Made by a program: the position numbers and the translations under genes. The notes under the pieces were generated by a model, which was not told the origin of the DNA, did no database searches, and was given only the letters and a program-made list of their open reading frames with translations. Below are positions 8,091 through 26,497 of a stretch of DNA of 64,000 bases, in pieces. The stretch covers positions 95,302 to 159,301 of the forward strand of contig PASP01000004.1 in assembly GCA_002712005.1 (NCBI GenBank). The letters are read 5' to 3'. This stretch comes from Halobacteriovoraceae bacterium. Lineage in GTDB: Bacteria > Bdellovibrionota > Bacteriovoracia > Bacteriovoracales > Bacteriovoracaceae. Within the stretch, counting starts at the first letter, position 1, and every line of letters starts with the position of its first letter.

Positions 8091-8118
8091 TAAACTAAGT
8101 CATAGAAGTTTCCGATAA
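8091..8118 (+). promoter_or_regulatory. FliA (sigma-28)-like promoter
   Basis: TAAA at 8091-8094 and TCCGATAA at 8111-8118 are separated by 16 bases. The enterobacterial FliA consensus is TAAA-N15-GCCGATAA, so seven of eight -10 positions and the full TAAA match, with one extra spacer base. The expected transcript start near 8125 leaves a short leader with AAGGAG at 8132-8137. The same arrangement precedes the paralogous gene at 20093. Confidence 0.5.
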
Positions 8119-8151: not shown

Positions 8152-11100
8152 TTGAAGTTAAGAGTTAAACCATTATTCAATGTTTTCATAGGGTCTATTT
8201 TGGCCTTGTCAGCATCGTGTGTTGATCAGAATGTAAAACTTAATGGTGAGTTCGCGATGTCGGGCTTTGACTTTGATGTGGAACCTCCGCTAGCAACTTT
8301 AAATTCTTCCCACACTCCTTATGTAAACACTACGACTATCAATCTTGATATTGATACAGGTAGTGATCTTATCAACTGCGCTTCTTTTGATCGCTTTGCC
8401 GTAACAGAGACAGATGATGCTCCTTCAGACTCTTCTTTTACTTACCGTTGTACGCAAGAGGGAATGCAGACTATTTCTTATACTCTTTCCGATCTTAGTG
8501 AAGGAGAGAGAACACTTTATTTATGGTCGATAGATGATAGGGCCAACAAAATGTCTACTTCTCGAGAAGTCGACCTTATCTTAGATACCACCGCTCCAAC
8601 TGGCTCACTCTCCGTCGTGACTGATTATGTACAAGGTGGGAGTACCCATAGTTTAAATTTTACTTCAGATGATAATCTTGAACTTGTTTCAACTGAACTG
8701 ACTATTTCTCACAACAGTAGTGGTCTGTGGGAAGATATAACCTATGATGAAGGGGGAATATTCACTTCAGGTAGTGTTACTTTTCCTATCACTGATTCAA
8801 CGGCCAATCTACGCTATCTTCTTACTGATGCCGCAGGAAATATTACCGAAATTCTATCCAATACTTTTATCATAGATACTACGGCTCCAACTCTATCCAT
8901 TGTAGACCCTACCCTATTTATCGCAGGGGGCTCTACCTATAATGTGAATTATTCCATTAACGACTTAAATGGAGTTGCTTCTTGGAGCTTGGCCTACTCT
9001 CAGGATAATGGATCTTCTTTTGCTCCTGTGGCCACGAGTCCTTCTTCTCCCTATGCTTGGAATGTTCCTCTCGATAATACGAATAACGCTCAACTCAGAC
9101 TTTCTGCAGCTGATGTGGCGGGGAATGCAATTTACACCGTCTCTACTAATTTCACTGTCGACTCGACTCCCCCAACACTATCACTTGATAATCCTCCAAC
9201 ATGGATTCAAGGAGGGAGCAATTATAATATAAATTTTAGTGCTACAGATAATAATGCTGTCGATTCAATGGTTCTTGAATACGCTGCAGATGGTACAACC
9301 TTTACAACTCTTACTACGACGAACTCCTCTCCATTTACTTGGTCAGTACCTGTTGTTGATATTCCAGCGAATGCTCGATTAAGACTAACAGCTTATGATC
9401 AGGCCGGTAATTCTTCCACTACGACTTCAACAGCTTTTGGAATTGACTCTACAGCTCCTAGTGTAAGTCTTTCTGATATGGCCGCGATCATTCGTGGTGG
9501 AATTAGCAACAATGTTACGCTTAACTCTAGTGATAGTGCGAGTGGAATAGGAACGGCCAATCTATCTTACTCTAATGATAGTGGAGCAACCTATTCTCTC
9601 ATTACTGCCTTTCCTTCCACACCAACCTATTCTTGGTCAACTCCAGGTGTAGACTTAGAAACAGCAAGGCTACGCTATGTTGTTACCGATAATGTCGGTA
9701 ACTCTACTACTGTGGAAAATAGTGTCTTTGAAATTGACTCCACAGCTCCCGTTTCAACTTTAGACTCACCTGCTGCTAGAATTAGAGGAGGAGATACACT
9801 CTCTCTCAACTTAAGTTCAACCGATAAGAATGGTATTGATACTCTAAGCTTAGAGTATGCCGCTGATGGAACAAACTTTAGTGTACTCGCGACTTCTCCA
9901 ACCAGCCCTTATTCATGGAATGTACCCACAGTGGATACAACAGGATCAAAACTTAGACTTGTTTCTACTGACCCCGTTGGAAATCAGTCTATTCTTGAAA
10001 CATCGAGTTTTGAAATTGATTCGACGCCATCACCAGCTCCTTCAATTTCACTTAATAGTAACTTATATACTAATATTACCGCCGTAACTTTAACCATGGG
10101 CAACTGTACGGATGTTGACTCCGTCTTTATAAATGAATCAACAGCACCAGGAAGAGACGATGCTGGCTGGCAAAGTTGCTCAACGAATGTAGGGGCTATC
10201 ACTTACACTCTACCAGCTGTAGAGGGAGAGCATACCTTAAAGGCATGGACAAAGGATGATGTTGGAAATGTATCGGTAAGTGCAACCGATGTCACCGTTT
10301 ACTATGATGTTACAAATCCGGTTTTATCCGTTACGACTCCTCCTATGCTCAGAGGAAGTAGCTCTTACACCATAAATTGGACTTTAACGGAAGAATATAT
10401 CGATTCAAGTGTGAGCTTTAATGTGGACTACTGGAATGGATCAACATGGCTAAATATTGTTGATCAAGCTGTTACAGCTGGTCCCCACTCTTCACAGTCT
10501 TTCAGTCACAACTGGACGACTCCCGCGCTTGATAGAGATGATCTCCTCATTAGAGTTGAAGTTACTGACTTAGCTGGAAATACAGGAACTATTCAAACCT
10601 CAGCTTTTGAAATTGATTCCACAGCTCCAGCTTCAACCCTTGATGATCCCCCCTCTCTACTCCAAGGGGGAGATATCCAAAATTTAACCTTTAGCTCAAC
10701 AGATGCTAATGGAGTAGATACTCTGCTTCTTCAATATGCTGCCAACGGATCTAGCTTTACAACGATTGCAACAAACCCAACTTCTCCCTATGCTTGGACA
10801 ATTCCCACCGATGATACTTCAAATGCAAGAGTTCGTTTAATCGCAACTGACCCTGTTGGAAATCAAACAGTCCTTACCTCAAGTCCCTTTGAAGTGGATT
10901 CTACAGCACCAAGTGCTCCAACTCTATCTTTACAAACTCCGCAATATACTACGAGTACGGCCGTGGCCTTTACCATGTCCTCTTGTAGTGAACACTTTGA
11001 TGAAATCCTGATCAACACAGGTTCTGCTCCATCAGAAGGAGATGCAAGTTGGCAAAGCTGTAATACAACTTCAGGGGGAATCACTTACACGATTCCAGCG

Positions 11101-14100
11101 ACAGAAGGTCCTCATAATTTAAGTGCTTGGGCAAAAGATAATGCTGGTAATATTTCGGCGACCTCAACTGATTTCACCATCTACTATGATGTCACCCAAC
11201 CAAGTCTTAACATTCCTAATCCTGGAATACTTGCAGGTAATACAACTTATAGTATTAGCTGGAGCCTAACCGAACAATATATCAATAATACCAGATCCTT
11301 TGATGTCGATTATTGGAATGGTTCTTCATGGCAGAATATTGCGACTGTTGCAGCAACGACGGGTCCTCATACCAATCAGTCTTATTCTACGAATTGGACA
11401 ACTCCGGGACTCAATCGCACCGATATTAGAATTAGAGTGCAAATTACGGATCTCGCCGGAAACTCGAGAACAAATCAATCCACTCAATTTGAAATCGACT
11501 CTATTTTTCCAGGCTTAACTATCTCATCTCCTGCGGCCAATAGTTACCACTTATCTTCCGCTGTTTTAACGGGTAACTGTGAGTCAGGTCTACCTATTAA
11601 CTTCTCAGGTGATCTCCAGACAAATTTCAGTACCACTTGTAGTGGGGGAACTTACTCTCAGACCATCAACTTTTCAGATAATGATGGAACAAAGAATATT
11701 ACTGTTGATCAAACGGATGCAGCAGGAAATACCACAAGTGTCACTCGCTCTTTCATCCGAGATGAGGTGGCACCAATTCTAACCCTCAACTCGGGGGCCA
11801 ACCCAGACTTCACCAATCAAAATACTCCCAATGCTTGGGGAGGAACCTGTGAAGGGAATTACACGATTAATATTACAGGTGATCAAAGTGCAACCATAAG
11901 CTGTAGTTCAGGCTCGTGGTCATGGACGCCATCTCCAGTGACTGTCGATGGAACTTATAGTTACTCTCTTACTCAAACAGATGCGGCCGGGAATACTTCA
12001 AGTCCTCCTCTATCTGTATCTTGGGAAAGAGATGCGACGCCACCAGTATTTAATATGTCTTCTCCCATTGCAATTTCAAGTGGTCAAACACAGACCGATA
12101 CCAATAATCTCAATCAAAGAACTCTCAGTGGTTCTTGTGAAGGAACAAATACGATTGCCATTACCGGGACTGAAACAGATTATATTTCCTGTTCAGCTTC
12201 GAGTTGGAGTTGGACAACTTCAACCTATACAAGCGATGGGACACGAAATTTCAACCTGGCTCAATCAGACAGTGCTGGTAACACCACAAGTTTTACCTAC
12301 CGTTGGGTTAGAGACACAACAGGTCCCGCTCTATCCATTGATGAGAATATGTTAAAGAGTAATACCAATACAGTTACTTTTGCTGGGAATTGTGAAAATG
12401 GTTTAACGATTGATATCACAGGTCCTGAAACCAATACCGCAACTTGTTCTTCGGGAAGATGGAGTTATACCACCAATAATCGCACGGGAGATGCGACGAG
12501 AACCTATACTTTTTCTCAGGCCTTTACCGTATCTCCCTATAATACGACTACGGTTAATGGAACTTGGATTAGAGAAACTAATCCTCCTACGATTTCAGCT
12601 TTTTCTACAACAGCAAGTAACCCGAGTACGAATGCCTATATTCCTATAGATCTAAGCGCGACTTCGCAGAATTCAAATGTCTATATATCAGAGGTATGCT
12701 TTACCCGCTTAACCACAACTCCTCCTCTTGATTCAGATGAGTGTTGGCTCGAGGTAGATTCACCTTCAGTGGGACTTCCACTCAGTCAAACCTTAAATCT
12801 TGATGACTTCTTCATCCTTCTAGGTTGGCAAACTCAGAGTTATGATATGTATGCCTGGGTAAAAGATGAAGCTGGTAATATCTCCAATCTTTCCAATGCT
12901 GGAAATGGAACAAATGGAACGGATACCTTTACTCATAACTATGATCCAGGTATTGCACCAGAAGTTGCCGATGTAACGGCTTCAAATGTAAATAATCCTC
13001 AAATTCCTCCTACACGAACTCAAAGTTCAGTGCCTGCTGGTACAGATGTTTATATCAGATGGAATGTGACGGATAACTCAACGATGCCTAATGGCTCCAT
13101 CGCCCTTTTCTACACTACAGATGATGTCAACTATACGGCCATATCTACAGCTCAAAATTTAAATCCTTATGATAATCAAGGCTGTGGTGGTGTAAGTCTT
13201 GGACCAGAAGAAGGATGTTATCGTTGGCCAGGTGGTTCTCCACTCAATGTTCCCTATAAAATTCTTTTGAAGGCAACGGATTCAACAAGTATTACAACTC
13301 AAGCAACTTCTAATAATACGAATACAGATACGATTAAAATCATTGCCGGTAATACGGAAAAAGGGATTGGTGGTTCGGCCCAAACAGCTGTCTTCATTAA
13401 TGAAGGAGACGGAGATTCAATGGACCCAGGGACCTTAGTTTATACCGACGATGGTCGTCTCTTCTTTGCCGATGCCGAAAGAGGAATTCTCACTGTTGAT
13501 AAGGACACAGGAAAGCTTGTTGTCTTTATTCCCGATACAGGTTCTTCGACAGGTGACGGTGGGGCTGCCGTTAATGCAACACTTCGTCACGCTATGAAAA
13601 TCACTCTCGATTATCAGGGAAGAATGCTTATTTTTGATGATAATAAAATCAGAAGAGTTGATTTAAATCAAGCTGAACCCACCATTGAAACCATATTAGG
13701 AACGGGCTCTAATACCAGTGATACTGTATCCAATCCCCTTGATCTTCAAATCAATAACATGGCCGAAAATGATAATTACGAAGATGCTATGCCTTTCTTT
13801 GCCATGCCAAATGGTGATATTGTCTTCTTCTCGGAAAGGCCTGTTCGTTGGCAAGGTAACCCAATGAATCGCCTAAGAATTTATAAGGCTTCTACCGGAC
13901 AAGTGATATCAAAATACTATTCAGGAACAGGTGACTCAGGATGGCCTTCTCAAGACTTAACTCTTTGTCGACTAAGTCACTACGGACTCTCTTTTGATGC
14001 CAACTCTGACTTTGTTCTCAACACGGCCTTCGTTTATCACCATCAAAATTATTCGGGTTGTGATCAAGCCGATACATGGAGGCGTGCAGCTTTCGACCCT

Positions 14101-15450
14101 GAAACTTTTGTAGCGATTCCACCTGCTAATGATTCTCACCGTTGGTGGCAGAGATATCCTTACACAGGAATGGATGGAAATCTCTATGTTATGGGTTATG
14201 GAGGTCGAGTGGATCGAATGAATCCGGACGGATCTTTTACTCTCGTTCTTGGAACAGGTACGAGAGGAGAATGTCCAGATGGAACTCCTGCGACAAGTTG
14301 TAATATCAATGCTCGAAGCTTCTTTGTAAATAAGAACGGAGAAATGTTCTTTGTCGACGCCGGATCTATTCGTGTAGTCGATACAAATGGCAATGTAAAA
14401 ACGATTCTTGGTCAGAGAAAAACTTATGGTGATGGCGTACTCGCAGTCAACGCACGTTTTGAAGTTGTAAGAGAGGTTACTCGTCTCAATAATGGTGATG
14501 TCGTGGTTGTCGACGGCGACGGATACTATGTAAAACAATTTTCTCCGGAAGGAAATATTAATGTAGTCGCGGGTAATGGTAATTTAGATCGTATCACCCT
14601 GGCCCAGCCTGCAGCCTATAACTCTGCCCATATCCGAAGTTATCTTCAAGTGGACAAGACCAATGGCGATCTCTTTTTTAACGAATGGAGTAATGATGAA
14701 ACCATTATTCGACTGAATCGTTCAACTGGGCTCTACGAAGAAATCATTGGAGATCCTTCAGGGACTAATTTTGAAACAGCCGATGGTCTTCCCGGAATGT
14801 CCGTAGATGCCAATGGTAATCAAAACTATGCTCTCGTTATCGGTGTGAATAGTGATGAGGTGATGCTGGCAAGAATGAGGTATAACGGAACAGAAGGTAG
14901 ACAAGGAACCTTCCGTATCAAAGGCTATGACCGAAATGATGTCTATCGCCAATTCCCAGTTGTTGGAGCAGGAGAATTTAGAGCCGATGGTAATGAAAGA
15001 AGATTTTGTAATGGGGCTTACTCTGGTCCAGTGACGGCTTCCACTTGTGATTCTCCTTATTATGATACGATGAGATCCATTGATTACGACTCCTTTAATG
15101 ATAGATGGATTATTGCCATCGCTCATGGCGGAACTCAGCAAGATGTTTTTGCTTACAAAAAATCAACGGATACCTTTGAGAGAATCGCCTATCTAGGTGC
15201 TGATATCATGGATTGGTATAAATTTGTTCGCCACGGGGATGGAAGTGAAGCCATCTACTACTGTGCTACGAGTGGAAGAATGAGAAAGTTTAACCTTGAT
15301 ACAGATACGGATGAAGGTGAGCTTAATTGGCCTATTAGCAATATGACTTGTCGAGGAAATAGAGCGGACTATAATCCGACTAATAATTCAATTATTTTTC
15401 CTTTCCGTCAAAATGGACTTTATGGTGTAGCGGAGTATTTTCTTCCATAA
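8152..15450 (+). CDS. Giant surface lipoprotein A: Ig-like repeats plus NHL-type beta-propeller
   Basis: 2432 residues with an N-terminal lipoprotein signal (hydrophobic segment ending LSASC). About fifteen Ig-like domains of about 90-110 residues follow between residues 60 and 1620. Each is joined by a linker of the type F-x-I-D-S-T-A-P, often with GG near the first strand and A-G-N before the next linker. From about residue 1729 the sequence changes to an NHL-like propeller (IIAGNTEKGIGG, TGDGGAAVNATL, GRMLIFDDNKIRRVD, TILGTGSN). The likely form is a long stalk with a propeller head on the cell surface. Residues 529-821 and 822-1115 are a tandem duplication of a three-domain block. The start is TTG at 8152, but AAGGAG at 8132-8137 fits an ATC codon at 8143 better. 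A FliA-like promoter precedes it. Confidence 0.75.
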   Translation: MKLRVKPLFNVFIGSILALSASCVDQNVKLNGEFAMSGFDFDVEPPLATLNSSHTPYVNTTTINLDIDTGSDLINCASFDRFAVTETDDAPSDSSFTYRCTQEGMQTISYTLSDLSEGERTLYLWSIDDRANKMSTSREVDLILDTTAPTGSLSVVTDYVQGGSTHSLNFTSDDNLELVSTELTISHNSSGLWEDITYDEGGIFTSGSVTFPITDSTANLRYLLTDAAGNITEILSNTFIIDTTAPTLSIVDPTLFIAGGSTYNVNYSINDLNGVASWSLAYSQDNGSSFAPVATSPSSPYAWNVPLDNTNNAQLRLSAADVAGNAIYTVSTNFTVDSTPPTLSLDNPPTWIQGGSNYNINFSATDNNAVDSMVLEYAADGTTFTTLTTTNSSPFTWSVPVVDIPANARLRLTAYDQAGNSSTTTSTAFGIDSTAPSVSLSDMAAIIRGGISNNVTLNSSDSASGIGTANLSYSNDSGATYSLITAFPSTPTYSWSTPGVDLETARLRYVVTDNVGNSTTVENSVFEIDSTAPVSTLDSPAARIRGGDTLSLNLSSTDKNGIDTLSLEYAADGTNFSVLATSPTSPYSWNVPTVDTTGSKLRLVSTDPVGNQSILETSSFEIDSTPSPAPSISLNSNLYTNITAVTLTMGNCTDVDSVFINESTAPGRDDAGWQSCSTNVGAITYTLPAVEGEHTLKAWTKDDVGNVSVSATDVTVYYDVTNPVLSVTTPPMLRGSSSYTINWTLTEEYIDSSVSFNVDYWNGSTWLNIVDQAVTAGPHSSQSFSHNWTTPALDRDDLLIRVEVTDLAGNTGTIQTSAFEIDSTAPASTLDDPPSLLQGGDIQNLTFSSTDANGVDTLLLQYAANGSSFTTIATNPTSPYAWTIPTDDTSNARVRLIATDPVGNQTVLTSSPFEVDSTAPSAPTLSLQTPQYTTSTAVAFTMSSCSEHFDEILINTGSAPSEGDASWQSCNTTSGGITYTIPATEGPHNLSAWAKDNAGNISATSTDFTIYYDVTQPSLNIPNPGILAGNTTYSISWSLTEQYINNTRSFDVDYWNGSSWQNIATVAATTGPHTNQSYSTNWTTPGLNRTDIRIRVQITDLAGNSRTNQSTQFEIDSIFPGLTISSPAANSYHLSSAVLTGNCESGLPINFSGDLQTNFSTTCSGGTYSQTINFSDNDGTKNITVDQTDAAGNTTSVTRSFIRDEVAPILTLNSGANPDFTNQNTPNAWGGTCEGNYTINITGDQSATISCSSGSWSWTPSPVTVDGTYSYSLTQTDAAGNTSSPPLSVSWERDATPPVFNMSSPIAISSGQTQTDTNNLNQRTLSGSCEGTNTIAITGTETDYISCSASSWSWTTSTYTSDGTRNFNLAQSDSAGNTTSFTYRWVRDTTGPALSIDENMLKSNTNTVTFAGNCENGLTIDITGPETNTATCSSGRWSYTTNNRTGDATRTYTFSQAFTVSPYNTTTVNGTWIRETNPPTISAFSTTASNPSTNAYIPIDLSATSQNSNVYISEVCFTRLTTTPPLDSDECWLEVDSPSVGLPLSQTLNLDDFFILLGWQTQSYDMYAWVKDEAGNISNLSNAGNGTNGTDTFTHNYDPGIAPEVADVTASNVNNPQIPPTRTQSSVPAGTDVYIRWNVTDNSTMPNGSIALFYTTDDVNYTAISTAQNLNPYDNQGCGGVSLGPEEGCYRWPGGSPLNVPYKILLKATDSTSITTQATSNNTNTDTIKIIAGNTEKGIGGSAQTAVFINEGDGDSMDPGTLVYTDDGRLFFADAERGILTVDKDTGKLVVFIPDTGSSTGDGGAAVNATLRHAMKITLDYQGRMLIFDDNKIRRVDLNQAEPTIETILGTGSNTSDTVSNPLDLQINNMAENDNYEDAMPFFAMPNGDIVFFSERPVRWQGNPMNRLRIYKASTGQVISKYYSGTGDSGWPSQDLTLCRLSHYGLSFDANSDFVLNTAFVYHHQNYSGCDQADTWRRAAFDPETFVAIPPANDSHRWWQRYPYTGMDGNLYVMGYGGRVDRMNPDGSFTLVLGTGTRGECPDGTPATSCNINARSFFVNKNGEMFFVDAGSIRVVDTNGNVKTILGQRKTYGDGVLAVNARFEVVREVTRLNNGDVVVVDGDGYYVKQFSPEGNINVVAGNGNLDRITLAQPAAYNSAHIRSYLQVDKTNGDLFFNEWSNDETIIRLNRSTGLYEEIIGDPSGTNFETADGLPGMSVDANGNQNYALVIGVNSDEVMLARMRYNGTEGRQGTFRIKGYDRNDVYRQFPVVGAGEFRADGNERRFCNGAYSGPVTASTCDSPYYDTMRSIDYDSFNDRWIIAIAHGGTQQDVFAYKKSTDTFERIAYLGADIMDWYKFVRHGDGSEAIYYCATSGRMRKFNLDTDTDEGELNWPISNMTCRGNRADYNPTNNSIIFPFRQNGLYGVAEYFLP
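9736..11496 (+). repeat. Tandem duplication of a three-Ig-domain block inside lipoprotein A
   Basis: Two consecutive blocks, 9736-10614 (879 bases) and 10615-11496 (882 bases), have the same domain order: a DSTAP-STL domain with GGD, a domain beginning with an S/T-rich P-A-P or S-A-P linker and containing a T-x-x-x-W-Q-S-C core, and a domain beginning YYDVT and containing VDYWNGS. The paralogue at 20093 has this block once, which accounts for almost all of its 298-residue shorter length. Confidence 0.75.
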
Positions 15451-15548
15451 AAAAAATCAATTACAAAAAGTAAATTAATCTATTTTATTTCTACCTCTTT
15501 ATAAGGGATAACCCTTGTAACAAAAGGTTTCCAACGGAGGTAGAAGAC

Positions 15549-16049
15549 ATGAAACTCATTACTCTTATTTTTTCTATAATCATTACTACTATGACAATGG
15601 CACAAAATGCTCCCCGATCTCTCGATTTTTGGGATGGCACATTTGCTTATAATCGTCTTATCGTTAAGGAACATGATTTCAACGGTCATACCCTCTCTTT
15701 AGAATTAACCGGGTCTACCCTAGAAATCGGACCTAAGATTGAAGGGATCGCTCCAACCTGGGGTCCAAGAGATAAAGTTCTCGTGACTGTTCGTAAGAAA
15801 GACTGCGATGTTGACTTCATTAATAAGAGCTTAAGTTGTCTTATCAATAGGGCATCGGGCTCCATTACTTGGAGTATCAATGGAAAGCTCTCCAAGAGCT
15901 TAAGCACAGTTTTAAAAGATATTAAAGTAGAAGCTTCAGGAGCTCAATTTGGAGCCCAAGTTAAATTCAGCTTTAGTATCGAAGGCGATGAGTGGTTCAC
16001 CCCCGCTAACGAAGAGCTTATTTTTGACTTTGATACCCTAAACTTTTAA
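15549..16049 (+). CDS. Small secreted protein of unknown function
   Basis: 166 residues with a signal peptide (MKLITLIFSIIITTMTMAQ, cleavage near residue 19). The ATG has a strong GGAGG ribosome site 8 bases upstream. The mature part is beta-rich, with two cysteines near residues 80 and 93 that could form a periplasmic disulphide. I do not recognise a family. It lies between giant lipoprotein A and the tail-fibre-like lipoprotein on the same strand and is followed by a strong terminator, so it probably belongs functionally to the surface locus. Confidence 0.6.
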   Translation: MKLITLIFSIIITTMTMAQNAPRSLDFWDGTFAYNRLIVKEHDFNGHTLSLELTGSTLEIGPKIEGIAPTWGPRDKVLVTVRKKDCDVDFINKSLSCLINRASGSITWSINGKLSKSLSTVLKDIKVEASGAQFGAQVKFSFSIEGDEWFTPANEELIFDFDTLNF

Positions 16050-16076
16050 TCAGTCTCTTTTCTTAATATCCAATTT

Positions 16077-16100
16077 ATGCCCACTTAGGTGGGCATTTTT
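16077..16100 (+). terminator. Rho-independent terminator after the small secreted protein
   Basis: ATGCCCAC (16077-16084) and GTGGGCAT (16089-16096) form a perfect 8-bp stem around a TTAG loop, followed directly by a run of T. It separates transcription of the first lipoprotein/secreted protein pair from the tail-fibre-like gene. Confidence 0.85.
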
Positions 16101-16193
16101 CGATCTTTTTTCCGCTTCAAATCCATCTAACTTACCGGTTTTATATTCCTAAAGAAATACCGACTAGGAGTAATGATAAGGTAAGAAGAAGCT

Positions 16194-19100
16194 ATGATAA
16201 AAAGATCGAAGTTCATTCAGATATTCAATCTCTTTGCCCTGCTCCTAGCAATGAATTCCTGTCTCCTCCCTGATGACAAAGGAAAGGTCTCTATTAGTTT
16301 AAGTGGTCAAGATGAAGCAACTCGAGGTAGGGCCGTAGGGCCTGAAGCGAAAGTTAATCAAATTAGACTCGAGAATGATCAAATCATTATTCAAGGTTCT
16401 CAATTGCAAGAAATAAAAAAGGTAAAACTCAAACAACCTTCTTCGCAAACTCTTTTAACCATTCTTTCCCAAAGCTCTGATCAACTTATTTTAAGCGCCA
16501 GCTCCAAAGTGGCCTTGGCCCTTAATACCCTCTTAAGTTTAACTCTTGAAGAAGCCTATGCCAGTACCACAGTTGAAGTGACTTTCAACCTGCCCGACAG
16601 TTCAGTTTCTGAATCCAAGATTGTTGATGGAGCAATAACTGCTGTGAAACTTGATTCTATGGGAGCAGGAGTTGGCCAGGTCCTCAAGTTTAATGGAACA
16701 CAGTGGGCGCCAAGTGATCTCAATGCCCTAACCTATGCTGGTAATTGGGATGCTGCAACCAACTCCCCAAACCTCTCAAGTGGAGGTAATTTAGGAGAAT
16801 TCTATATTGTGAATAACAGTGGCTCTACAGATCTTCTTGGTGGACCTGGAACCCATACTTGGGCCATTGGTGATTGGGTTGTTTGGAATAATGTCGACGC
16901 TAGCTGGGAAAAAGTTGATAACGCCTCCAATGTGACTAGCTTTAACGGTAGAAATGGACCTATTACTGCTCAATCTGGAGACTATGATTGGTCCATGATA
17001 AGCAACCAAGCCGGAGTATACTTTGACTACCAACCTAATAATAGCTCTTGCTCTGATGGAGAAGTTTTAAAATATGATTCTTCCCTTCCTGGATGGAAGT
17101 GTGATTCAGATAATGACACTACCAATTCAGGAGATATTACAGGAGTCAACCCGGGAACCGGACTAACAGGTGGTGGTTCTAGTGGTGAAGTGACCTTAAA
17201 TATTAATGTCGGAACTGGAGCGAATCAGATTCCTCAACTCGATGCCAGTGCTTTACTCGACTCATCTAATATCCCGAATTTGAATGCTACGAAAATTAGC
17301 TCTGGAGTACTCGATAGTGCTCGTCTTCCCAATGCCAGTGGAAGTACGGATGGTATTATTACTGCCACTGACTATCTTAACTTCTCTGCTAAAGAAGGCC
17401 CTTTAACTGCCGGAACGACGGCTCAATATTATCGAGGAGATAAGAGCTGGCAAACTTTAGATACTTCAGTTGTTCCAGAAAATACAAATCTCTATTTTAC
17501 AGAGGCAAGAGCGAAAGCAGCCGTTATCTCTCCCCTTATATCAGATGGAGTAACGAATCTCTCCCCTAGTGAAGATGCTGTCTTCGATGCTCTCGCAACA
17601 AAGCAAGATACACTCACCACCACCTCAACGACGCTTCAAGGTAGTTTCCAACTCTATGATTCCGTTGATCAGTCTCACTATATAGAATTCATCGCCCCAG
17701 ACTTATCCACCAATCTAACCTATACTTGGCCAAGCTCAGCGGGATCAAGTGGTCAAGTTCTTGAATCAGACGGTGCCGGAAATCTTTCGTGGACCACGCC
17801 ATCAAGTGATGTCTCTTCTGTCAGTGCAAACTCTCCCCTAAGCTCATCAGGTGGAACCACTCCAACTCTAAGTATTTCACAGGCCAATGCAACAACATCT
17901 GGATACCTCTCTTCTTCAGATTGGAATCTTTTCAATAACAAAGAAGGTGCTCTCTCAGCAGGTACGACGGCCCAATACTATAGAGGAGATAAAACCTGGC
18001 AAACTCTAGATACGAGTGTTATTACAGAGAATTCTAATCTCTACTTTACCAATTCGAGAGCACGATCAGCTGTTGTCCGACAGTCTATAACGGACTCGGT
18101 AACCAATACATCTCCAAGTGAGGATGTAGTATTTGATGCTCTGGCCACCAAAGAAGATAATATTTCAAGTGGAACTACTGCTCAATATTTCAGAGGCGAT
18201 AAGACCTGGCAGACATTAGACTCAAGTATCGTAGCTGAAAATGGAAATCTCTATTTCACAGATACCCGTGCCCAAAATGCGGTGGTTACCCAAACCATAA
18301 CCAATGGAGTGACTACAACTTCTCCCTCCGAAGATGTTATTTTTGATGCTCTTGCTACTAAGCAAGACGCTGCCAGTGCAACCTCCGACTTTGTTAATAC
18401 TTCTGGTGACTCAATGACAGGAAACTTAAATCTTAATTCTCGTTCTCAATTAAGATTAGCTGATTCCGATTCCTCTCACTATATGGCCTTAAGAGCGCCG
18501 GCCAATGTAACCACAAGTACAACCCTCTCTCTTCCTGACGGAGATGGGAGTAACGGACAAGTCTTAAGTACCGATGGCTCAGGAAACCTAAGTTGGACTT
18601 CCGCGGCTTCAGGAAGTGTGACGGCAGTGAATGCCAACTCTCCTTTAAGTTCAAGTGGAGGAACAACTCCAACCCTTTCGATCTCTCAATCCTCCTCTTC
18701 AACAAATGGGTTTCTCTCTTCGACGGATTGGAATACTTTTAACAATAAAGAAAATGCCCTCAGCGCTGGAACTACTGCACAATATTATCGCGGAGATAAA
18801 TCTTGGCAAACTCTCAATACTTCAGTTGTTCCAGAAAGTGGTAACCTCTATCATACAACAGCAAGGGCCAGATCTGCCGCAGTTGCCGATGCTATAAATA
18901 ATGGAACCACCAATATTGCTCCCTCACAAAATGCTGTCTTTGATGCTCTAGCACTCAAAGCTGATACGACGACAGCTGACTCTGATTACGTCAATGTTAG
19001 CGGTGATACTATGACTGGTACGCTTAACTTACCGGCCAATTCATTTAATGTGGGTACTGACCAACTTATTCTCACAAGTAACTTCGTCGGGATTGGAACG

Positions 19101-19949
19101 GCTTCCCCTTCAGCCCTTCTCAATACATCAAGCGCAGGTTCAGGAATCAAAGCGCGATTTGAAACGTCATCGGCTACGGGTAACGATGCCGGTATTGCCA
19201 TAAAAGGAGCACGTACGGGAGCTCTTAAAGGTGATACAGGTTATGTCGACTTTAATAATTATGATGATAATGAAGGCACAGGAACTGAATATACCATGGG
19301 TCGTGTATCAGGTGGAATGCACGATGATACAGGTGAGACAGGTGTACTCCAATTTTCGACCAACGATGGAACCGGTCTTAAAAAGAGAATGATAATCGAC
19401 AAACAAGGAAATGTGGGGATTGGAACGAATGCTCCTAATGAAAAGCTCGATATTCTCGGAAATATCGATCTCAACGATTTTGATATTAAGAATCAAGGTA
19501 ATTACTATTGGGGAGTCGTAGCCTTGTCATCAGGAAATTATAAACTCTCTGATGGTTCAACAGGAACAATCACTGTTCCCACAGGTGACAATGTAACCGC
19601 TTGTAACGGAGATGGAATGGTATGCATGCGCCACTTCACCGGAAATCAGTGGGCCATTGGAATTGAAATAGGTGAAGGAGAAGGTGACTTTATCTGGGAT
19701 CCCCTAACAGACACCCCTGTAGGAGGAGGACAAATCTTTGCTTGCCACGGAGTCTCTGTTGGAGATAACGAAGCCGTTGATGAAGGAGGAAGTCAGAATA
19801 TAGGTTGGGGCGACGGAATTCGCTCAGTGGATACAGACGCTAATGGACACTGCTTAGGAGCTGCTCAAACCAATTGTGCAACAGCCTCGATATTAAGCCC
19901 TGCAGGCTCTCACGACATCTATGGCATAGTTTGTAGACGCTTCTATTAA
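16194..19949 (+). CDS. Phage tail fibre-like repeat lipoprotein
   Basis: 1251 residues. The N-terminus carries a lipoprotein signal ending LAMNSC (Cys23). The middle contains motifs known from phage tail fibres: VTSFNGRNGPITAQSGDYDW near residue 245, four copies of the AGTTAQYYRGDK-x-WQTL / NLYFT-x-x-RA unit (near residues 402, 585, 660 and 856), and the SPLSSSGGTTPTLSISQ segment twice. A later part has two VGIGT-type units followed by ALLNTS and KLDILG. No peptidase S74 intramolecular chaperone is visible; the protein ends in a Cys-rich domain (about residues 1110-1251). It is probably a trimeric surface fibre anchored by lipid. No other phage genes are near. Confidence 0.75.
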   Translation: MIKRSKFIQIFNLFALLLAMNSCLLPDDKGKVSISLSGQDEATRGRAVGPEAKVNQIRLENDQIIIQGSQLQEIKKVKLKQPSSQTLLTILSQSSDQLILSASSKVALALNTLLSLTLEEAYASTTVEVTFNLPDSSVSESKIVDGAITAVKLDSMGAGVGQVLKFNGTQWAPSDLNALTYAGNWDAATNSPNLSSGGNLGEFYIVNNSGSTDLLGGPGTHTWAIGDWVVWNNVDASWEKVDNASNVTSFNGRNGPITAQSGDYDWSMISNQAGVYFDYQPNNSSCSDGEVLKYDSSLPGWKCDSDNDTTNSGDITGVNPGTGLTGGGSSGEVTLNINVGTGANQIPQLDASALLDSSNIPNLNATKISSGVLDSARLPNASGSTDGIITATDYLNFSAKEGPLTAGTTAQYYRGDKSWQTLDTSVVPENTNLYFTEARAKAAVISPLISDGVTNLSPSEDAVFDALATKQDTLTTTSTTLQGSFQLYDSVDQSHYIEFIAPDLSTNLTYTWPSSAGSSGQVLESDGAGNLSWTTPSSDVSSVSANSPLSSSGGTTPTLSISQANATTSGYLSSSDWNLFNNKEGALSAGTTAQYYRGDKTWQTLDTSVITENSNLYFTNSRARSAVVRQSITDSVTNTSPSEDVVFDALATKEDNISSGTTAQYFRGDKTWQTLDSSIVAENGNLYFTDTRAQNAVVTQTITNGVTTTSPSEDVIFDALATKQDAASATSDFVNTSGDSMTGNLNLNSRSQLRLADSDSSHYMALRAPANVTTSTTLSLPDGDGSNGQVLSTDGSGNLSWTSAASGSVTAVNANSPLSSSGGTTPTLSISQSSSSTNGFLSSTDWNTFNNKENALSAGTTAQYYRGDKSWQTLNTSVVPESGNLYHTTARARSAAVADAINNGTTNIAPSQNAVFDALALKADTTTADSDYVNVSGDTMTGTLNLPANSFNVGTDQLILTSNFVGIGTASPSALLNTSSAGSGIKARFETSSATGNDAGIAIKGARTGALKGDTGYVDFNNYDDNEGTGTEYTMGRVSGGMHDDTGETGVLQFSTNDGTGLKKRMIIDKQGNVGIGTNAPNEKLDILGNIDLNDFDIKNQGNYYWGVVALSSGNYKLSDGSTGTITVPTGDNVTACNGDGMVCMRHFTGNQWAIGIEIGEGEGDFIWDPLTDTPVGGGQIFACHGVSVGDNEAVDEGGSQNIGWGDGIRSVDTDANGHCLGAAQTNCATASILSPAGSHDIYGIVCRRFY
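17395..18900 (+). repeat. Degenerate tail-fibre repeat cassettes
   Basis: Four copies of a roughly 60-70-residue unit begin with AGTTAQYYRGDK (one has YFRGDK) and contain NLYFT (one NLYHT) and SPSEDVVFDALATK-like ends. Two longer cassettes also carry a SSSGGTTPTLSIS segment and a DWN-x-FNNKE segment. DNA identity is partial, with many synonymous differences, so the copies are not recent. Confidence 0.7.
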
Positions 19950-20026
19950 AACAATTTTTCTGGGCAAATTTAAAGAAATCTTGAACATCTAAGTTATTGA
20001 AAACTCATTATTTTGCATTTCCCATT

Positions 20027-20054
20027 TAAGATTAATTTATCTAAATACCGATAA
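20027..20054 (+). promoter_or_regulatory. FliA (sigma-28)-like promoter
   Basis: TAAG (20027-20030), a 16-base spacer and ACCGATAA (20047-20054) reproduce the arrangement found before giant lipoprotein A, with seven of eight -10 positions matching the FliA consensus. Recurrence of the same unusual 16-base spacing at the paralogous gene supports it. Confidence 0.5.
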
Positions 20055-20092
20055 TTTCTTTCAAATGGGGAAATAATATTTATCGTACAATT

Positions 20093-23000
20093 TTGAAAAA
20101 TACAGGGATGGGTTACTTAGGCATGATTTTAATCATGATCGTAACTTCTTGTGTGGATCAAAATGCTAAACTCGCCGGTGACTTCGCTCTGTCAGGCTTT
20201 GATTTTGATGTAGAAGCTCCTATCGCGAGCCTAAACTCCTCTCACTCTCCCTATGTAAATTCAACAACGATTCAGCTTGATATTGATACCGGAAAAAAAT
20301 TAGTTAACTGTGCTTCTTTTGATCGTTTTGCCATTACAGAAACAGATGACGAACCCTCTTCTCAAGCCTTTCGCTATACTTGTCAATCTGAAAGAACTCA
20401 AACGATTTCCTATACATTTAAAGACCCAACAGAGGGTAATCGTACATTATATCTTTGGTCAATAGATGATAGGGCCCAAAAGAAATCAACTTACTCTGAA
20501 GTCGATCTTATTCTTGATACAACAGCTCCAACCGGCTCCATCTCCATAGTGAACGACTACATTCAAGGGGGTTCTACCCACACTCTATCTTTAAGTTCTT
20601 CCGATAATATAGAGCTTGTTGAATCGCGATTAGAGGCGACTCATTACAACTCAGGTGTTTGGGAAGATATTACTTATAATGAAGGACTCTTTAGTACGAG
20701 TGTCTCCTTCCCTATCGTTGACTCTTCAGGCTCTAGACTTCGCTATCTTCTAACTGATGCTGCAGGAAATACGACAGAAATTTTATCCAATACCTTTATT
20801 ATAGATTCAACGACTCCAACTTTAAGTATTACAAATCCTTCACTCTTTATAGCTGGTGGAAGTACTTATAATATCAATTATTCTGCTTACGATCTCAATG
20901 GAATTGCCTCTTGGAATTTATCTTATTCACAAGATAACGGATCAAGCTTTGCTCCTGTGCAAAGTAGTCCTTCTTCACCCTATTCATGGAATGTCCCCTT
21001 AGATGATACTAATGATGCTCGCATCAGACTATCTGCCGCCGATGTTGCAGGAAATGCTATCTATACGGTATCTACTGTCTTTACAGTAGACTCCACGCCT
21101 CCGGCCATTACCCTTGATAATCCTCCAACATGGCTTCAGGGCGGAAGTACCTACAATATTAATTTTAGTGCCAGTGACCATAATGGGATTAGTTCTCTTA
21201 ATTTAGAATACTCACCAGATGGAATAACCTATTCAAGCTTAACCACTCTTAACTCATCTCCTTTTAGTTGGAGTGTACCTGTTGTCGATATACCAGTGAA
21301 TGCAAGACTTCGGCTTACTGCGGTTGATCCCGCTGGAAACTCTTCTGTCATAACTTCCACGGCATTTGGAATCGATTCCACCAATCCAAGTGTGAGCTTA
21401 GATAATATGGCCGCCATCATTCGAGGGGGAATAAATAATAATATTTCCTTAAGCTCAAGTGATTCAGCAAGTGGTATAGCTTCCGCTAATCTCTATTACT
21501 CAAACGATAGTGGTTCAAGCTATACGCTTATTACAACTTTTCCAGCAAATCCGACCTATTCTTGGTCGACCCCCGCAGTAGATTTAGAAACCGCACGCTT
21601 ACGTTACATTGTTACCGATAATGTGGGAAATTCAACCACTATTGAAAATAATATTTTTGAAATTGATTCAACTGCACCTGCAACAAGTCTTGATAACCCT
21701 CCTTCCATTCTCAAAGGTGGTGATAGTCTTAGTATCAATTTAAGTGCGTCTGATAAAAATGGATTGGCCACTTATAATCTAGAATATGCTGCGGATGGTA
21801 CCAACTTTTCACTCATCACTTCTTCACCAGTGAGCCCCTATACTTGGACAATACCATTGGATGATGTTCCTGCAGCGAAAATAAGGATTGTGGCCATTGA
21901 TCCAGTTGGAAATCAAACTCTAACAGAGTCAAGTGCGTTTGAAGTGGATTCAACATCTCCTGCGGCTCCCCCTATTTCTCTGAATTCCAATCAATATACA
22001 AATGTAACTGCTGTATCTTTCACCATGTCCGCTTGTAATGAACACTACAATGATATTCTTATCAATACAGGTTCAGCTCCTGCGGAATCAGATCCCACAT
22101 GGCAAACATGTTCTACCGGTACAGGAGCCATTACCTATACTCTTCCGACTACAGAAGGTCCCCATACTCTAAGCGCTTGGTCAAAAGATGATGCAGGAAA
22201 TATTTCAGCAAGTTCAGCCGACTTCACGATTTACTATGATGTCACTTCACCCGTTATCAACGTATCAAACCCAGGACTCTTAGCGGGAAGCAATACCTAC
22301 ACGATCAATTGGAATTTAACGGAGACTTATATCGATAATACAAGATCCTTTGACGTCGATTATTGGAATGGATCCTCTTGGCAAAATATTGCAAATGTTG
22401 CTGCTACAACTGGTCCCCATAGTTCTCAAGGATATTCAACCTCGTGGACAACACCAAACTTAGACCGCACGGATATTCGACTAAGGGTTCAAGTTTTAGA
22501 CCTTGCTGGAAATTCAGAATCAAGTGAATCAACTCAGTTTGAAATCGATTCAACTCCACCAAATTTAACCATTAGTTCTCCTGCGGCCAATAGTTATCAC
22601 AAGGCCTCTGTTGTTATGACAGGACTTTGTGAAACAGGTCTCCCTATTTTCTTTTCAGGTGCTCTTCAAGAAGATTTCTCCGTAACCTGTTCAGGGGGAA
22701 GCTACTCTCAAACTCTAAACTTCTCTAACGGAGATGGTAATAAACTTATCTACGCTTCTCAGACGGATGCTGCTGGAAATAATACTCTCGTCAGTCGAAC
22801 ATTTATTCGAGATGAGGTCGCTCCAGTTCTGAGTTTAACAAGTGGAACGAATCCAGATTTCACCAATGCAAATCAACCCAATACTTGGTCAGGAACGTGC
22901 GAAGGAAACTATACGATTACGATTACAGGTGATCAATCGACGACAATTCCTTGTTCATCAGGATCTTGGTCATGGACCGCTGGTTCAAAAACGAGTGACG

Positions 23001-26000
23001 GCACTTATAGTTATTCCTTAACTCAAACTGATGCTGCTGGAAATACAACAAACCCTGCTCTTTCTCTTTCTTGGGAAAGAGATGCAACTCCCCCTGTCTT
23101 TAATATGAGTGCTCCTATTACAATTGAGGTAGGAGAAACAAAAACAGATATCAACAATAAAGACTCTATTGATTTTTCAGGTGCCTGTGAAGGGACTAAT
23201 GTGATTAATATTTCTGGTGCCGAGTCAGCAGCGATCTCATGTTCAGCTTCAAGCTGGACATGGTCAACAGCAACGGCCAGTACCGACGGTATGAGAAACT
23301 ATACATTTACTCAGTCTGACTCTGCTGGAAATGCTGTCTCTTTTACCTATAGATGGGACCGAGACACAACAGGACCGGCCTTATTTGTAGAAGAAAATCT
23401 AATCAAGTCCAATACAAATACCGTAACTTTTACTGGAACTTGTGAAACAGGAATTACCATTAATATCTCTGGCGCTGATTCAAGTTCTGTCTCTTGTCCA
23501 TCAGGAACATGGAGCTATACAACGGCAACAAGAACCGGGGATGCAACTAGAAACTATAATTTCAGCCAGCAATTTCCTTCAGGTGCTATGGTGACAACGA
23601 CAGTTTCGGGACAATGGATACGAGAAACCAATGCTCCAACTATTTCTTCTTATTCGACATCGGCATCAAGCCCTTCAAGAAAACCTTTTATTCCAGTTGA
23701 TCTTACTGCAACTTCTCAAAACTCTAATGTCTATATTAAGAAGATCTGCTTTAAATCAGGTAGCTCTGTTCAACCAGCTGCTGATGATAAATGCTGGCTT
23801 GAAGTTGACTCCCCTTCCGTTGGCTATCCTCTTTCTCAAACTCTAAATTTGGCCAACTATAATATTCTCTTGGGTTGGGAGCCGATGCTTTATAACTCTT
23901 ATGCCTTCGTCATGGATGAAGCGGGAAATATATCCACGAATACTTCCTCTGTAGGAACTGATCGTTTACAGATCACCTACGATCCAGGTATCGCTCCAGA
24001 ACTCTTCGATGTTCTTGCTGCAAGTAATCCTTCAACGGCCATTCCTCCCACAAGAGGACAGTCACAGGTCGCTCCCGGTTCCGATGTTTTCATTCGTTGG
24101 AAAATCACAGATAATTATTCTCTCCCCAGTGGTGCTATCAGCCTTTACTATACAACTGATGATATCGTCTTTAATGCTATTACTGGAGCCGAAGCCCTTA
24201 ATCAAAATACTGATTATGGATGTGGAATTACCCTTGATGCCAATGAAGGTTGTTTCAAGTGGACCGGGGGATCACCGGTTAGTGTCGCCTACAAAGTTCA
24301 AGTCAGTGTTACCGATACAACTGATATCACTGTTCAGCAGACAACCAATATCCTCAATAGTGGCCAATTAAAAATCATTGCCGGAAATACAGATAATGGA
24401 ATTGGAGGCTCTGCTCAAACAGCAACTTTTTCCATTGAGGGTGATACTGATGATTATGACGGTCACTCCATTATTTTCACAGAAGCTGGAGATATGTACT
24501 ATATGGACCCAGATCGTGGAATTCTAACGGTAGATGAATCAGATGGAAGTCTCATTGTCTTCATTCCTAAAACGGGAACCAGTAGTGGTGATGGAGGACC
24601 CGCAAAAGCGGCAACCTTAAATAATCCCATTGCGATCACGATGGATTATCAAGGAAGAATGCTTATTCATGACTACAATCGCATTAGAAGAGTTGACTTA
24701 ACTCTATCAGAGCCCAATATCGAAACGATTATTGGTGGCGGTTCAAATAAAAGTGATACCGTTTCCAATCCTCTAGATGTTGAATTTGATAATCCTTGTG
24801 TTGGTTGTCGTGAAGAAGATGGAATGAGCTTCTTTGCCATGCCTAATGGAAATATCGTTTTTTGGTCAGAAAGACCTCGTCACAATCGAGGAGCGACTAT
24901 GCCTCGAGTTCGTATTTATAATAATGCCACAGGACAGGTCACATCAAAGTACTTTAGTGGAAATGGTGACTGGAGAAGTGCCTCTCAAGATATTTCTAAA
25001 TGTTATCTCTACCTCTTTGGTATTGGTTTTGATTCCAATTCAGATTTCAATTACGTCCTAGGTATGTCCCAACATAGAACAAATTATACGGGTTGTGATG
25101 ATGCTGAAGAAGAATACCGAATGAAGTTTGACCCCGATACTTTCGCAGCCGTTACTCCCGACAATGGAAGTTACTCACATTATACTCACTACCCCTATAC
25201 CGGGATGGATGGAAATCTCTATCAAATCATTTCTCGAAATTACGTCATGAAGCTTGATCCGGACACAGGTTCATGGACCCGTGTATTAGGTTCAGGAACT
25301 CGTGGGGAATGTAATGATGGAGAACTGGCCACAGACTGTAATATGCACATTATGAATCTCTATGTCTCACCTACAGGTAAATTTTATTTTGGGGATAGAG
25401 GTTCGGTAAGAACTGTCAATGATGATGGTGAAGTTATCACGATCTTTGGACAAAAGCGTACTTTTGGAGATGGAGTTTTGGCCATTAATGCCCGCTTTGA
25501 CTTGCCTAAATTTGTTGATAAATCCTCTGGTACTGATCGCTATATTGTCGGTGACAATAGTGGGAACTATGTTAAAGAGTTTACGGTGGAAGGAAATATA
25601 AATGTCATAGCCGGTAATGGAAACCATGCCGTTATTGATATAACTCAACCGGCAAAGGGCAATACGATAACCTACTCTGATCATATGGCGGTTGATCCAG
25701 CAAATGGAAATCTCTACATGGCCAGAAACCATAGTTATGGGGATATCTATATGCTCAACCGGGGAACGGGAAATTGGACCCAAGTAATTGGTGATATTGA
25801 TTCCTCAGGAACAAACTACTGGGACTCAGCTGATGGCCTTGTGGGTTCGGCAATCAACTCTCATACCCAATATAGTCGTGGTAAGATTATTGGCTTTGGA
25901 GATAATAAAATTGCCATGGTACGTTTCCAGTACAATTACACAGACCTAAGGCATCAAGATAGTATGTTCAAACTCTATAATCGAGGGGATAGCTACAGAC

Positions 26001-26497
26001 AATCTCATATGATGGGTATCATGGGATGGCCTAGTGATAATAATACGCGAAGATTTTGTACAGCAGCTTCTACAAGCACTACTGCTTCAACATGTGAAGT
26101 TCCAACCACCACTGATACTGTGGGAAATATCCAATACGATCCCGTCGATGACAAATGGATTATGGCCATTGTGATTGGGGGAACTCAGCAAGATGTCTAC
26201 TACTACTATGAAAATACCGATACTATTGAACATGTTGCCTACGTGGGACAAGACATGGAGAATTGGTATAAGCATGTTCGCGACGGTGGAGTGGAAAAGC
26301 TCTACTACTGCTCAACTTCGGGTAGAATTCGTGTTCATAATTTAGATACCGATAGTGATGAAGGACATCTCGCTTGGCCTATGTCCAATCTTCGTTGTAT
26401 GGGAAGAAATGCAGCCTACAATGCGACGAACCACTCTATCGTATTTACTTTTGAACAAAACGGGCTCTACGGTGTAGCCGAATACTTTATCCCTTAA
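20093..26497 (+). CDS. Giant surface lipoprotein B: Ig-like repeats plus NHL-type beta-propeller
   Basis: 2134 residues, a paralogue of the protein at 8152. The two share the segment after the lipobox (SCVDQNAKLAGDFALSGFDF here, nearly the same there), the domain order and the C-terminus ending GLYGVAEYF-x-P. Here the lipobox is VTSC. Twelve or so Ig-like domains precede the propeller, which begins near residue 1425 (IIAGNTDNGIGG, SSGDGGPAKAATL, RIRRVDL). It has one copy of the three-domain block duplicated in protein A. The called start is TTG at 20093; GGGGA at 20067-20071 is better placed for an ATT at 20078. A FliA-like promoter lies upstream. The stop overlaps the convergent gene by 4 bases. 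Confidence 0.75.
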   Translation: MKNTGMGYLGMILIMIVTSCVDQNAKLAGDFALSGFDFDVEAPIASLNSSHSPYVNSTTIQLDIDTGKKLVNCASFDRFAITETDDEPSSQAFRYTCQSERTQTISYTFKDPTEGNRTLYLWSIDDRAQKKSTYSEVDLILDTTAPTGSISIVNDYIQGGSTHTLSLSSSDNIELVESRLEATHYNSGVWEDITYNEGLFSTSVSFPIVDSSGSRLRYLLTDAAGNTTEILSNTFIIDSTTPTLSITNPSLFIAGGSTYNINYSAYDLNGIASWNLSYSQDNGSSFAPVQSSPSSPYSWNVPLDDTNDARIRLSAADVAGNAIYTVSTVFTVDSTPPAITLDNPPTWLQGGSTYNINFSASDHNGISSLNLEYSPDGITYSSLTTLNSSPFSWSVPVVDIPVNARLRLTAVDPAGNSSVITSTAFGIDSTNPSVSLDNMAAIIRGGINNNISLSSSDSASGIASANLYYSNDSGSSYTLITTFPANPTYSWSTPAVDLETARLRYIVTDNVGNSTTIENNIFEIDSTAPATSLDNPPSILKGGDSLSINLSASDKNGLATYNLEYAADGTNFSLITSSPVSPYTWTIPLDDVPAAKIRIVAIDPVGNQTLTESSAFEVDSTSPAAPPISLNSNQYTNVTAVSFTMSACNEHYNDILINTGSAPAESDPTWQTCSTGTGAITYTLPTTEGPHTLSAWSKDDAGNISASSADFTIYYDVTSPVINVSNPGLLAGSNTYTINWNLTETYIDNTRSFDVDYWNGSSWQNIANVAATTGPHSSQGYSTSWTTPNLDRTDIRLRVQVLDLAGNSESSESTQFEIDSTPPNLTISSPAANSYHKASVVMTGLCETGLPIFFSGALQEDFSVTCSGGSYSQTLNFSNGDGNKLIYASQTDAAGNNTLVSRTFIRDEVAPVLSLTSGTNPDFTNANQPNTWSGTCEGNYTITITGDQSTTIPCSSGSWSWTAGSKTSDGTYSYSLTQTDAAGNTTNPALSLSWERDATPPVFNMSAPITIEVGETKTDINNKDSIDFSGACEGTNVINISGAESAAISCSASSWTWSTATASTDGMRNYTFTQSDSAGNAVSFTYRWDRDTTGPALFVEENLIKSNTNTVTFTGTCETGITINISGADSSSVSCPSGTWSYTTATRTGDATRNYNFSQQFPSGAMVTTTVSGQWIRETNAPTISSYSTSASSPSRKPFIPVDLTATSQNSNVYIKKICFKSGSSVQPAADDKCWLEVDSPSVGYPLSQTLNLANYNILLGWEPMLYNSYAFVMDEAGNISTNTSSVGTDRLQITYDPGIAPELFDVLAASNPSTAIPPTRGQSQVAPGSDVFIRWKITDNYSLPSGAISLYYTTDDIVFNAITGAEALNQNTDYGCGITLDANEGCFKWTGGSPVSVAYKVQVSVTDTTDITVQQTTNILNSGQLKIIAGNTDNGIGGSAQTATFSIEGDTDDYDGHSIIFTEAGDMYYMDPDRGILTVDESDGSLIVFIPKTGTSSGDGGPAKAATLNNPIAITMDYQGRMLIHDYNRIRRVDLTLSEPNIETIIGGGSNKSDTVSNPLDVEFDNPCVGCREEDGMSFFAMPNGNIVFWSERPRHNRGATMPRVRIYNNATGQVTSKYFSGNGDWRSASQDISKCYLYLFGIGFDSNSDFNYVLGMSQHRTNYTGCDDAEEEYRMKFDPDTFAAVTPDNGSYSHYTHYPYTGMDGNLYQIISRNYVMKLDPDTGSWTRVLGSGTRGECNDGELATDCNMHIMNLYVSPTGKFYFGDRGSVRTVNDDGEVITIFGQKRTFGDGVLAINARFDLPKFVDKSSGTDRYIVGDNSGNYVKEFTVEGNINVIAGNGNHAVIDITQPAKGNTITYSDHMAVDPANGNLYMARNHSYGDIYMLNRGTGNWTQVIGDIDSSGTNYWDSADGLVGSAINSHTQYSRGKIIGFGDNKIAMVRFQYNYTDLRHQDSMFKLYNRGDSYRQSHMMGIMGWPSDNNTRRFCTAASTSTTASTCEVPTTTDTVGNIQYDPVDDKWIMAIVIGGTQQDVYYYYENTDTIEHVAYVGQDMENWYKHVRDGGVEKLYYCSTSGRIRVHNLDTDSDEGHLAWPMSNLRCMGRNAAYNATNHSIVFTFEQNGLYGVAEYFIP

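Follow-up and report, generated by a model that had tools for sequence, protein, structure and literature searches.

Two neighbouring classes of candidate attack-phase adhesin, Ig/NHL lipoproteins and a tail-fibre-like lipoprotein, in a Halobacteriovoraceae genome

A 64-kb window of the genome of a Halobacteriovoraceae bacterium, a relative of the predator Bdellovibrio (assembly GCA_002712005.1, contig PASP01000004.1; coordinates are window positions unless another locus is named) carries, between positions 8152 and 26497, four plus-strand open reading frames (ORFs) that encode two giant predicted lipoproteins with immunoglobulin-like (Ig) stalks and NHL-type heads (ORF1 and ORF4), a small secreted protein (ORF2) and a lipoprotein resembling a phage tail fibre (ORF3). 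On balance, and with some reserve, we favour the view that the locus encodes two independent classes of putative attack-phase surface adhesin, lying side by side without forming a single machine, and consider both to be good candidates for a role in recognising prey. The first-pass annotation of this DNA had described the number, sizes and strand of the ORFs, the Ig-like stalks, the NHL heads and the tail-fibre-like protein, all of which were borne out by ORF calls and by Pfam and PHROG searches (Table 1). The features are coding sequences with homologues, far beyond chance; no tandem repeats were found at the DNA level, nor did defence-system models yield any match.

ORF1 pairs with ORF4 as its sister sequence (support 100), within a family-wide clade whose other members are solitary. 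The two are 62% identical across 2123 aligned residues, with the stalks (~70%) more alike than the heads (mostly 35-67%), and ORF1 has a single extra Ig block of 293 residues. Both match the Ig-like Big_13 family (E 3.5e-26 for ORF1 and 3.9e-16 for ORF4) and, above its cut-off, the teneurin NHL family PF25021 (TEN_NHL; E 2.6e-14 and 5.5e-9, respectively). By inspection, the N-termini of ORF1 (LSASC-V), ORF4 (IVTSC-V) and ORF3 (AMNSC-L) are lipoprotein-like. At the other end, ORF1 and ORF4 both finish with the head (a tail of 0 residues) and show no Rhs/YD match in Pfam. A third Ig/NHL gene in the same genome (L016: 4772-14293, 3173 aa) has a transmembrane-type rather than a lipoprotein N-terminus, and its nearest relative is a solitary gene of another genus (L061).

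The head of ORF4 was modelled with AlphaFold2 from a 13-sequence alignment (pLDDT 80.6, pTM 0.75). The model is nearly all beta and its residues 306-652 align with teneurins, NHLRC2 and the teneurin-like protein 9ifo (Z ~24), the alignment with 9ifo having Z 24.4 over 293 residues at 3.2 Å. The initial description of an NHL-like propeller head thus holds for the last ~345 residues, which match a known propeller, whilst the C-terminal region of ~650 residues is larger than one propeller; the ~320 residues ahead of the propeller part are conserved too. Eight conserved cysteine columns, mostly in neighbouring pairs, are present in the head family alignment, as expected for an exported protein.

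Behind a predicted lipobox, ORF3 has an N-terminal domain of ~130 residues, then a series of repeated tail-fibre modules with two capping motifs, and ends in a tip of ~160 residues. It matches phage protein families (PHROG, E 3.9e-21), and its shaft weakly matches the structures (8on4, 8oml) of Bd1334, a member of the mosaic adhesive trimer (MAT) fibres of Bdellovibrio bacteriovorus (phmmer, E 0.001-0.003). A single-sequence model of the tip (pLDDT 32) was uninformative on its fold. Matches to a PI3-kinase SH2 domain and an importin in structure-sequence searches (E 0.06-1.8) were judged to be due to chance.

Six further genes with an ORF3-type N-terminus are present in the same genome, three of them cut at contig ends. 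The N-terminal ends of five fibre paralogues share 88-93% DNA identity and those 3' ends that can be read differ from one another. Four fibre ORFs of this genome have a Peptidase_S74 end, which ORF3 itself lacks; one of the paralogues (L019, 1904 aa) combines the ORF3-type N-terminus and the Peptidase_S74 end in a single ORF. At the starts of contigs C17, C13 and C11, fibre genes (L020, L021 and L022) are cut off after their nearly identical 5' stretch, probably because fibre repeats interrupted the assembly, which makes the fibre count provisional. Across the phylum, the ORF3-type N-terminus was found in 57 of 369 genomes, mostly of the window's family, with up to 8-10 copies per genome.

A link to the attack phase is suggested by promoter-like elements. 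In B. bacteriovorus, FliA is the main attack-phase regulator, to which the attack-phase promoter consensus TTAAG-N16-CCGATA has been ascribed (PMC3627812). Elements close to this consensus lie shortly upstream of both ORF1 and ORF4 (Table 1). CCGATAA occurs no more than 110 bp upstream of six of the ten NHL/fibre genes in the window's genome, whereas a single one of 118 background ORFs has it there (Fisher p=2.6e-7), the pattern having been picked after ORF1 and ORF4 had been seen. The independent test is that on other genomes, where TAA[AG]-N15..17-nCGATA precedes 12 of 55 NHL-head genes and 5 of 531 other ORFs (p=6e-10); each of the four related patterns applied there gave p < 2e-6, and relatedness of the genomes inflates these promoter p-values, although the spacer sequences do differ. 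At the control positions for the same NHL-head genes, antisense or further upstream, the pattern was seen in 0/55 cases each. The NHL gene of B. bacteriovorus HD100 is immediately preceded by TAAA-N15-GCCGATAA, of textbook FliA type, and among the window genome's own flagellin genes that were inspected by eye, three carry TAAA-N15-nnCGATA. The sole background gene of the 118 with CCGATAA upstream encodes a receiver-like protein (window 35534-36985, minus strand) and may belong to the same regulon.

A GCCGATAA element (GCCGATAAGT in Bd1334, L018 and L019) is also present just upstream of fibre genes (L080: 1435-4890, which is Bd1334, and L018, L019 and L022). These elements have no -35 TAAA at sigma28 spacing, and possibly represent a regulatory element common to fibre genes.

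Several observations weigh against reading the locus as encoding attack-phase adhesins. The spacer upstream of ORF1 and ORF4 is 17 nucleotides rather than the published 16, and a window of 64 kb could fairly easily contain either element by chance, so that they are notable only together and in view of their position. Upstream of ORF3 the sequence is CCGACTA rather than an exact CCGATAA, whilst the elements preceding its paralogues have no -35 part and might be shared through common descent. The ORF1 lipobox (S-A-S-C) is non-canonical. Finally, the Ig/NHL head gene is absent from all six congeners, and cannot therefore be essential to that genus's way of life.

The four genes do not form a conserved system. 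Their order, a search for which had been proposed in the first-pass annotation as a check on the idea of a joint apparatus, was not found in any other searched genome, nor were the four genes seen together in one, an outcome that the same annotation had named as refuting its idea. That the set is not conserved follows also from the behaviour of its parts: the congeners lack Ig/NHL but four of the six have an ORF3-type fibre (a fifth giving a weak match); homologues of ORF2, found in three of the six congeners and in one other genus, lie beside unrelated genes in the congeners; the third Ig/NHL gene and the other fibre paralogues of the genome itself are mutually dispersed; and in the window's family a related protein, mostly of 2700-4100 residues, is solitary in fifteen neighbourhoods. 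In addition, a terminator-like hairpin, the top-ranked site in a terminator scan in which such sites were overall no commoner than in shuffles, separates ORF2 from ORF3. Sites in a sigma-70 promoter scan were likewise no more numerous than in shuffles. ORF2 itself has a signal peptide but no family match in searches that included Pfam and PHROG.

The NHL-head family extends well beyond the window, being found in 84 of the 369 genomes of the phylum, including that of HD100 (G146, recognised by its 100% match to the sequence of the Bd1334 structure), where the gene, on the minus strand at about 194.9-199.8 kb, encodes a predicted lipoprotein of 1617 aa (L077: 6934-11787, on contig C1). In a named scan, which used one degenerate pattern and was accordingly limited in reach, full-length head relatives came mainly from records named Bdellovibrio, Pseudobdellovibrio or Bacteriovoracaceae, with only partial NHL matches elsewhere (in Bacteroidetes and Nitrospirae). 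Our literature searches found nothing on Bdellovibrio together with NHL repeats; a co-mention of Bdellovibrio and teneurin concerns the YD-repeat protein Bd0109, which belongs to another family.

The first-pass association of fibre and NHL protein fails for the four-gene set but survives in a looser form, as a pairing of tail-fibre and NHL-head genes that recurs elsewhere. Four genomes, each from a different family, have a tail-fibre gene immediately before a gene for an NHL protein of 1058-1076 residues, with a 4-bp overlap or a 4-bp gap (L078, which is the same as L138, from Pseudobdellovibrio; L083; L090; L091). Two of the paired fibres contain the MAT N-terminal domain by sequence search (L078, E 5e-25 with Bd1334; L091, E 2.5e-18); the start of the L083 fibre appears similar by eye and that of the L090 gene is not in the sequence. 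A dedicated search for complete fibre-NHL pairs found none beyond these four, and lists of NHL and ORF3-type fibre positions across the phylum showed no other ORF3-type fibre adjoining an NHL gene. In a quick tree the four paired NHL proteins cluster (support 80) with one solitary relative, apart from the ORF1/ORF4 clade. Two further candidates were rejected: an apparent fusion of fibre and NHL head (L094), the N-terminus of which is that of an Ig-type lipoprotein, and a supposed fibre neighbour (L081), where the capping-motif match was a chance match within another protein.

How, then, is the linkage of the four genes to be explained? There is close to an even chance that it is a by-product of duplication, with a duplicating fibre gene having settled between tandem Ig/NHL copies, the genes acting independently and their position having no functional significance. 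The sister relationship of ORF1 and ORF4 points this way, as do fibres that are dispersed and multi-copy in this genome and arranged in arrays elsewhere, whereas the fibre-NHL pairs found repeatedly in other lineages are a sign that selection can favour having the two genes together. This explanation concerns linkage only and is compatible, as far as function goes, with two classes of adhesin.

An alternative that does bear on function, and which we regard as rather unlikely, would make the Ig/NHL proteins envelope lipoproteins with a structural or polysaccharide-binding part in adhesion to solid surfaces or matrix, not to prey. NHL-type propellers do serve other ends in exported bacterial proteins (the nutrient-binding 4hw6 and 3tc9, for instance), and the partial matches in Bacteroidetes and Nitrospirae would fit such a role; against this stand the concentration of full-length heads in records named Bdellovibrionota or Bacteriovoracaceae and the promoter-like elements of attack-phase type on NHL-head genes. 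Less probable still is a prey-recognition system of the attack phase, found throughout Bdellovibrionota, in which NHL-propeller proteins and tail-fibre adhesins would be expressed together and the NHL protein would physically partner the fibre, for example as surface dock, cap or co-receptor; on that reading, the element on the surface to which MAT fibres bind could be such a partner. Least probable of all is the original proposal of one apparatus, in which the fibre and both NHL lipoproteins would assemble with ORF2 as a secreted helper: a single strand, a span of 18 kb, the four fibre-NHL pairs and the CCGATAA-type element common to NHL and fibre genes speak for it, but it is not borne out by an order seen in no other genome searched, congeners that have the fibre without the NHL gene, ORF3-type fibres that adjoin one nowhere else in the position lists, ORF2 homologues in unrelated contexts, the hairpin after ORF2 and the distant tree position of the four operon-type NHL proteins.

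What was right about the earlier suggestion of a recognition role, on the evidence of the MAT-like shaft, the S74-ended paralogues and the promoter-like elements of the NHL genes, is the resemblance of both protein classes to surface or recognition proteins; it is the joint apparatus that lacks support. For two separate adhesin classes, the following picture can be proposed. During the hunting phase, the cell would display both lipid-anchored Ig stalks bearing propeller heads and lipid-anchored trimeric fibres, each binding surface ligands. In the tandem-duplicated ORF1 and ORF4, the stack of Ig modules on its lipid anchor would hold the propeller tens of nanometres off the cell, where the head might bind a prey-surface glycan or protein, or else another surface component of the predator; that the heads of the duplicate copies are more diverged than the stalks would fit diversification of binding. 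ORF3 would probably form a trimeric adhesive fibre, MAT-like in action but fixed to the cell through a lipid and an N-terminal domain of another kind, with the C-terminal tip as its binding end. What the sequences show is the domain make-up, the homology, the spread across the phylum, the lack of four-gene linkage and the excess of FliA-type elements before NHL-head genes; display at the surface, assembly into trimers, hunting-phase expression and the binding of prey are what we infer.

Table 1 Features of the locus (window positions), with one fibre-NHL pair from another genome (positions within locus L138)
Feature	Position	Strand	Remarks
ORF1, giant Ig/NHL lipoprotein	8152..15450	+	2432 aa, TTG start; Ig-like modules of ~95 residues, C-terminal NHL/teneurin-type head
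ORF2, small secreted protein	15549..16049	+	166 aa
ORF3, tail-fibre-like lipoprotein	16194..19949	+	1251 aa, no S74 end
ORF4, giant Ig/NHL lipoprotein, paralogue of ORF1	20093..26497	+	2134 aa, TTG start
Promoter-like element TAAA-N17-CCGATAA, ORF1	8091..8118	+	FliA/sigma28 type; starts 61 bp upstream
Promoter-like element TAAG-N17-CCGATAA, ORF4	20027..20054	+	starts 66 bp upstream
ORF1 head region, aa 1786-2432	13507..15447	+	profile coordinates, Pfam TEN_NHL
ORF4 head region, aa 1484-2134	24542..26494	+	profile coordinates
ORF3 N-terminal domain (family A2)	16263..16652	+	anchor common to dispersed paralogues; homology to MAT N-terminal domain not detected
Capping-loop motif VGIGTASPSALL, ORF3 shaft	19086..19121	+	VGIGT..P...L pattern
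Second capping-loop motif VGIGTNAPNEKL, ORF3	19413..19448	+	region matches Bd1334 (PDB 8on4, 8oml)
ORF3 C-terminal tip	19461..19946	+	~160 residues, six cysteines, no known family
Terminator-like hairpin between ORF2 and ORF3	16077..16096	+	8 pairs, T-run
Fibre-NHL pair, L138	6516-8660 (fibre) and 8657-11872 (NHL)		4-bp overlap

Just downstream of the locus, a gene for a hybrid histidine kinase with receiver and Hpt domains adjoins one for a subtilase (window 28305-30539 and 30541-32232).

How bacterial predators recognise their prey is an open question, and in Bdellovibrio the structural description of recognition fibres began with MAT. The NHL-head proteins, only some of which have an Ig stalk, would be a second, widespread and apparently undescribed family with promoter-like elements of attack-phase type, present in HD100 as well, and to this can be added a putatively lipid-anchored sort of fibre found alongside MAT, as well as the tail-fibre/NHL gene pairs. 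As HD100 is genetically tractable, the NHL-head family, the lipid-anchored fibre and the pairs are directly testable there.

Each class resembles known systems in part. The Ig/NHL protein shares with the OmpL47-type surface proteins of Leptospira an Ig-like domain that scores 56.5 against a 40-bit domain cut-off, but reaches only 43.9 against the 250-bit cut-off of the OmpL47 protein model and has an NHL head in addition. Stacked Ig modules are likewise found in large repetitive adhesins of the Big/Ca_tandemer type, from which ORF1 and ORF4 differ in their predicted N-terminal lipobox and propeller head, and in a Ca_tandemer score below its cut-off. With teneurins and teneurin-like proteins they have the NHL propeller in common, but they lack the YD/Rhs shell, end at the propeller and possess a long Ig stalk and a predicted lipid anchor. 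ORF3 resembles the MAT fibres (Caulton et al. 2024, PMC10769870) in its exported tail-fibre-like shaft and capping loops, and its family resembles them in having several members per genome, both S74-ended and non-S74, with variable C-terminal tips. The MAT superfamily has a beta-helical shaft with a capping-loop motif, matched in ORF3 by its two such motifs and the weak hit to Bd1334, and is characterised by a conserved beta-rich domain of ~130 aa right after the signal peptide (PMC10769870). ORF3 and its paralogues carry another N-terminal domain there, preceded by a predicted lipobox; sequence searches found no MAT N-terminal domain in ORF3, and when the N-terminal profile of the ORF3 family (A2) was aligned by hhalign to that of MAT (A3, a profile of HD100 Bd1334 and three relatives), the probability was 0.3% over 6 aligned columns. 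As its N-terminal domain is unrelated by this profile comparison, ORF3 is not classed as a member of MAT; it plausibly works like a MAT fibre.

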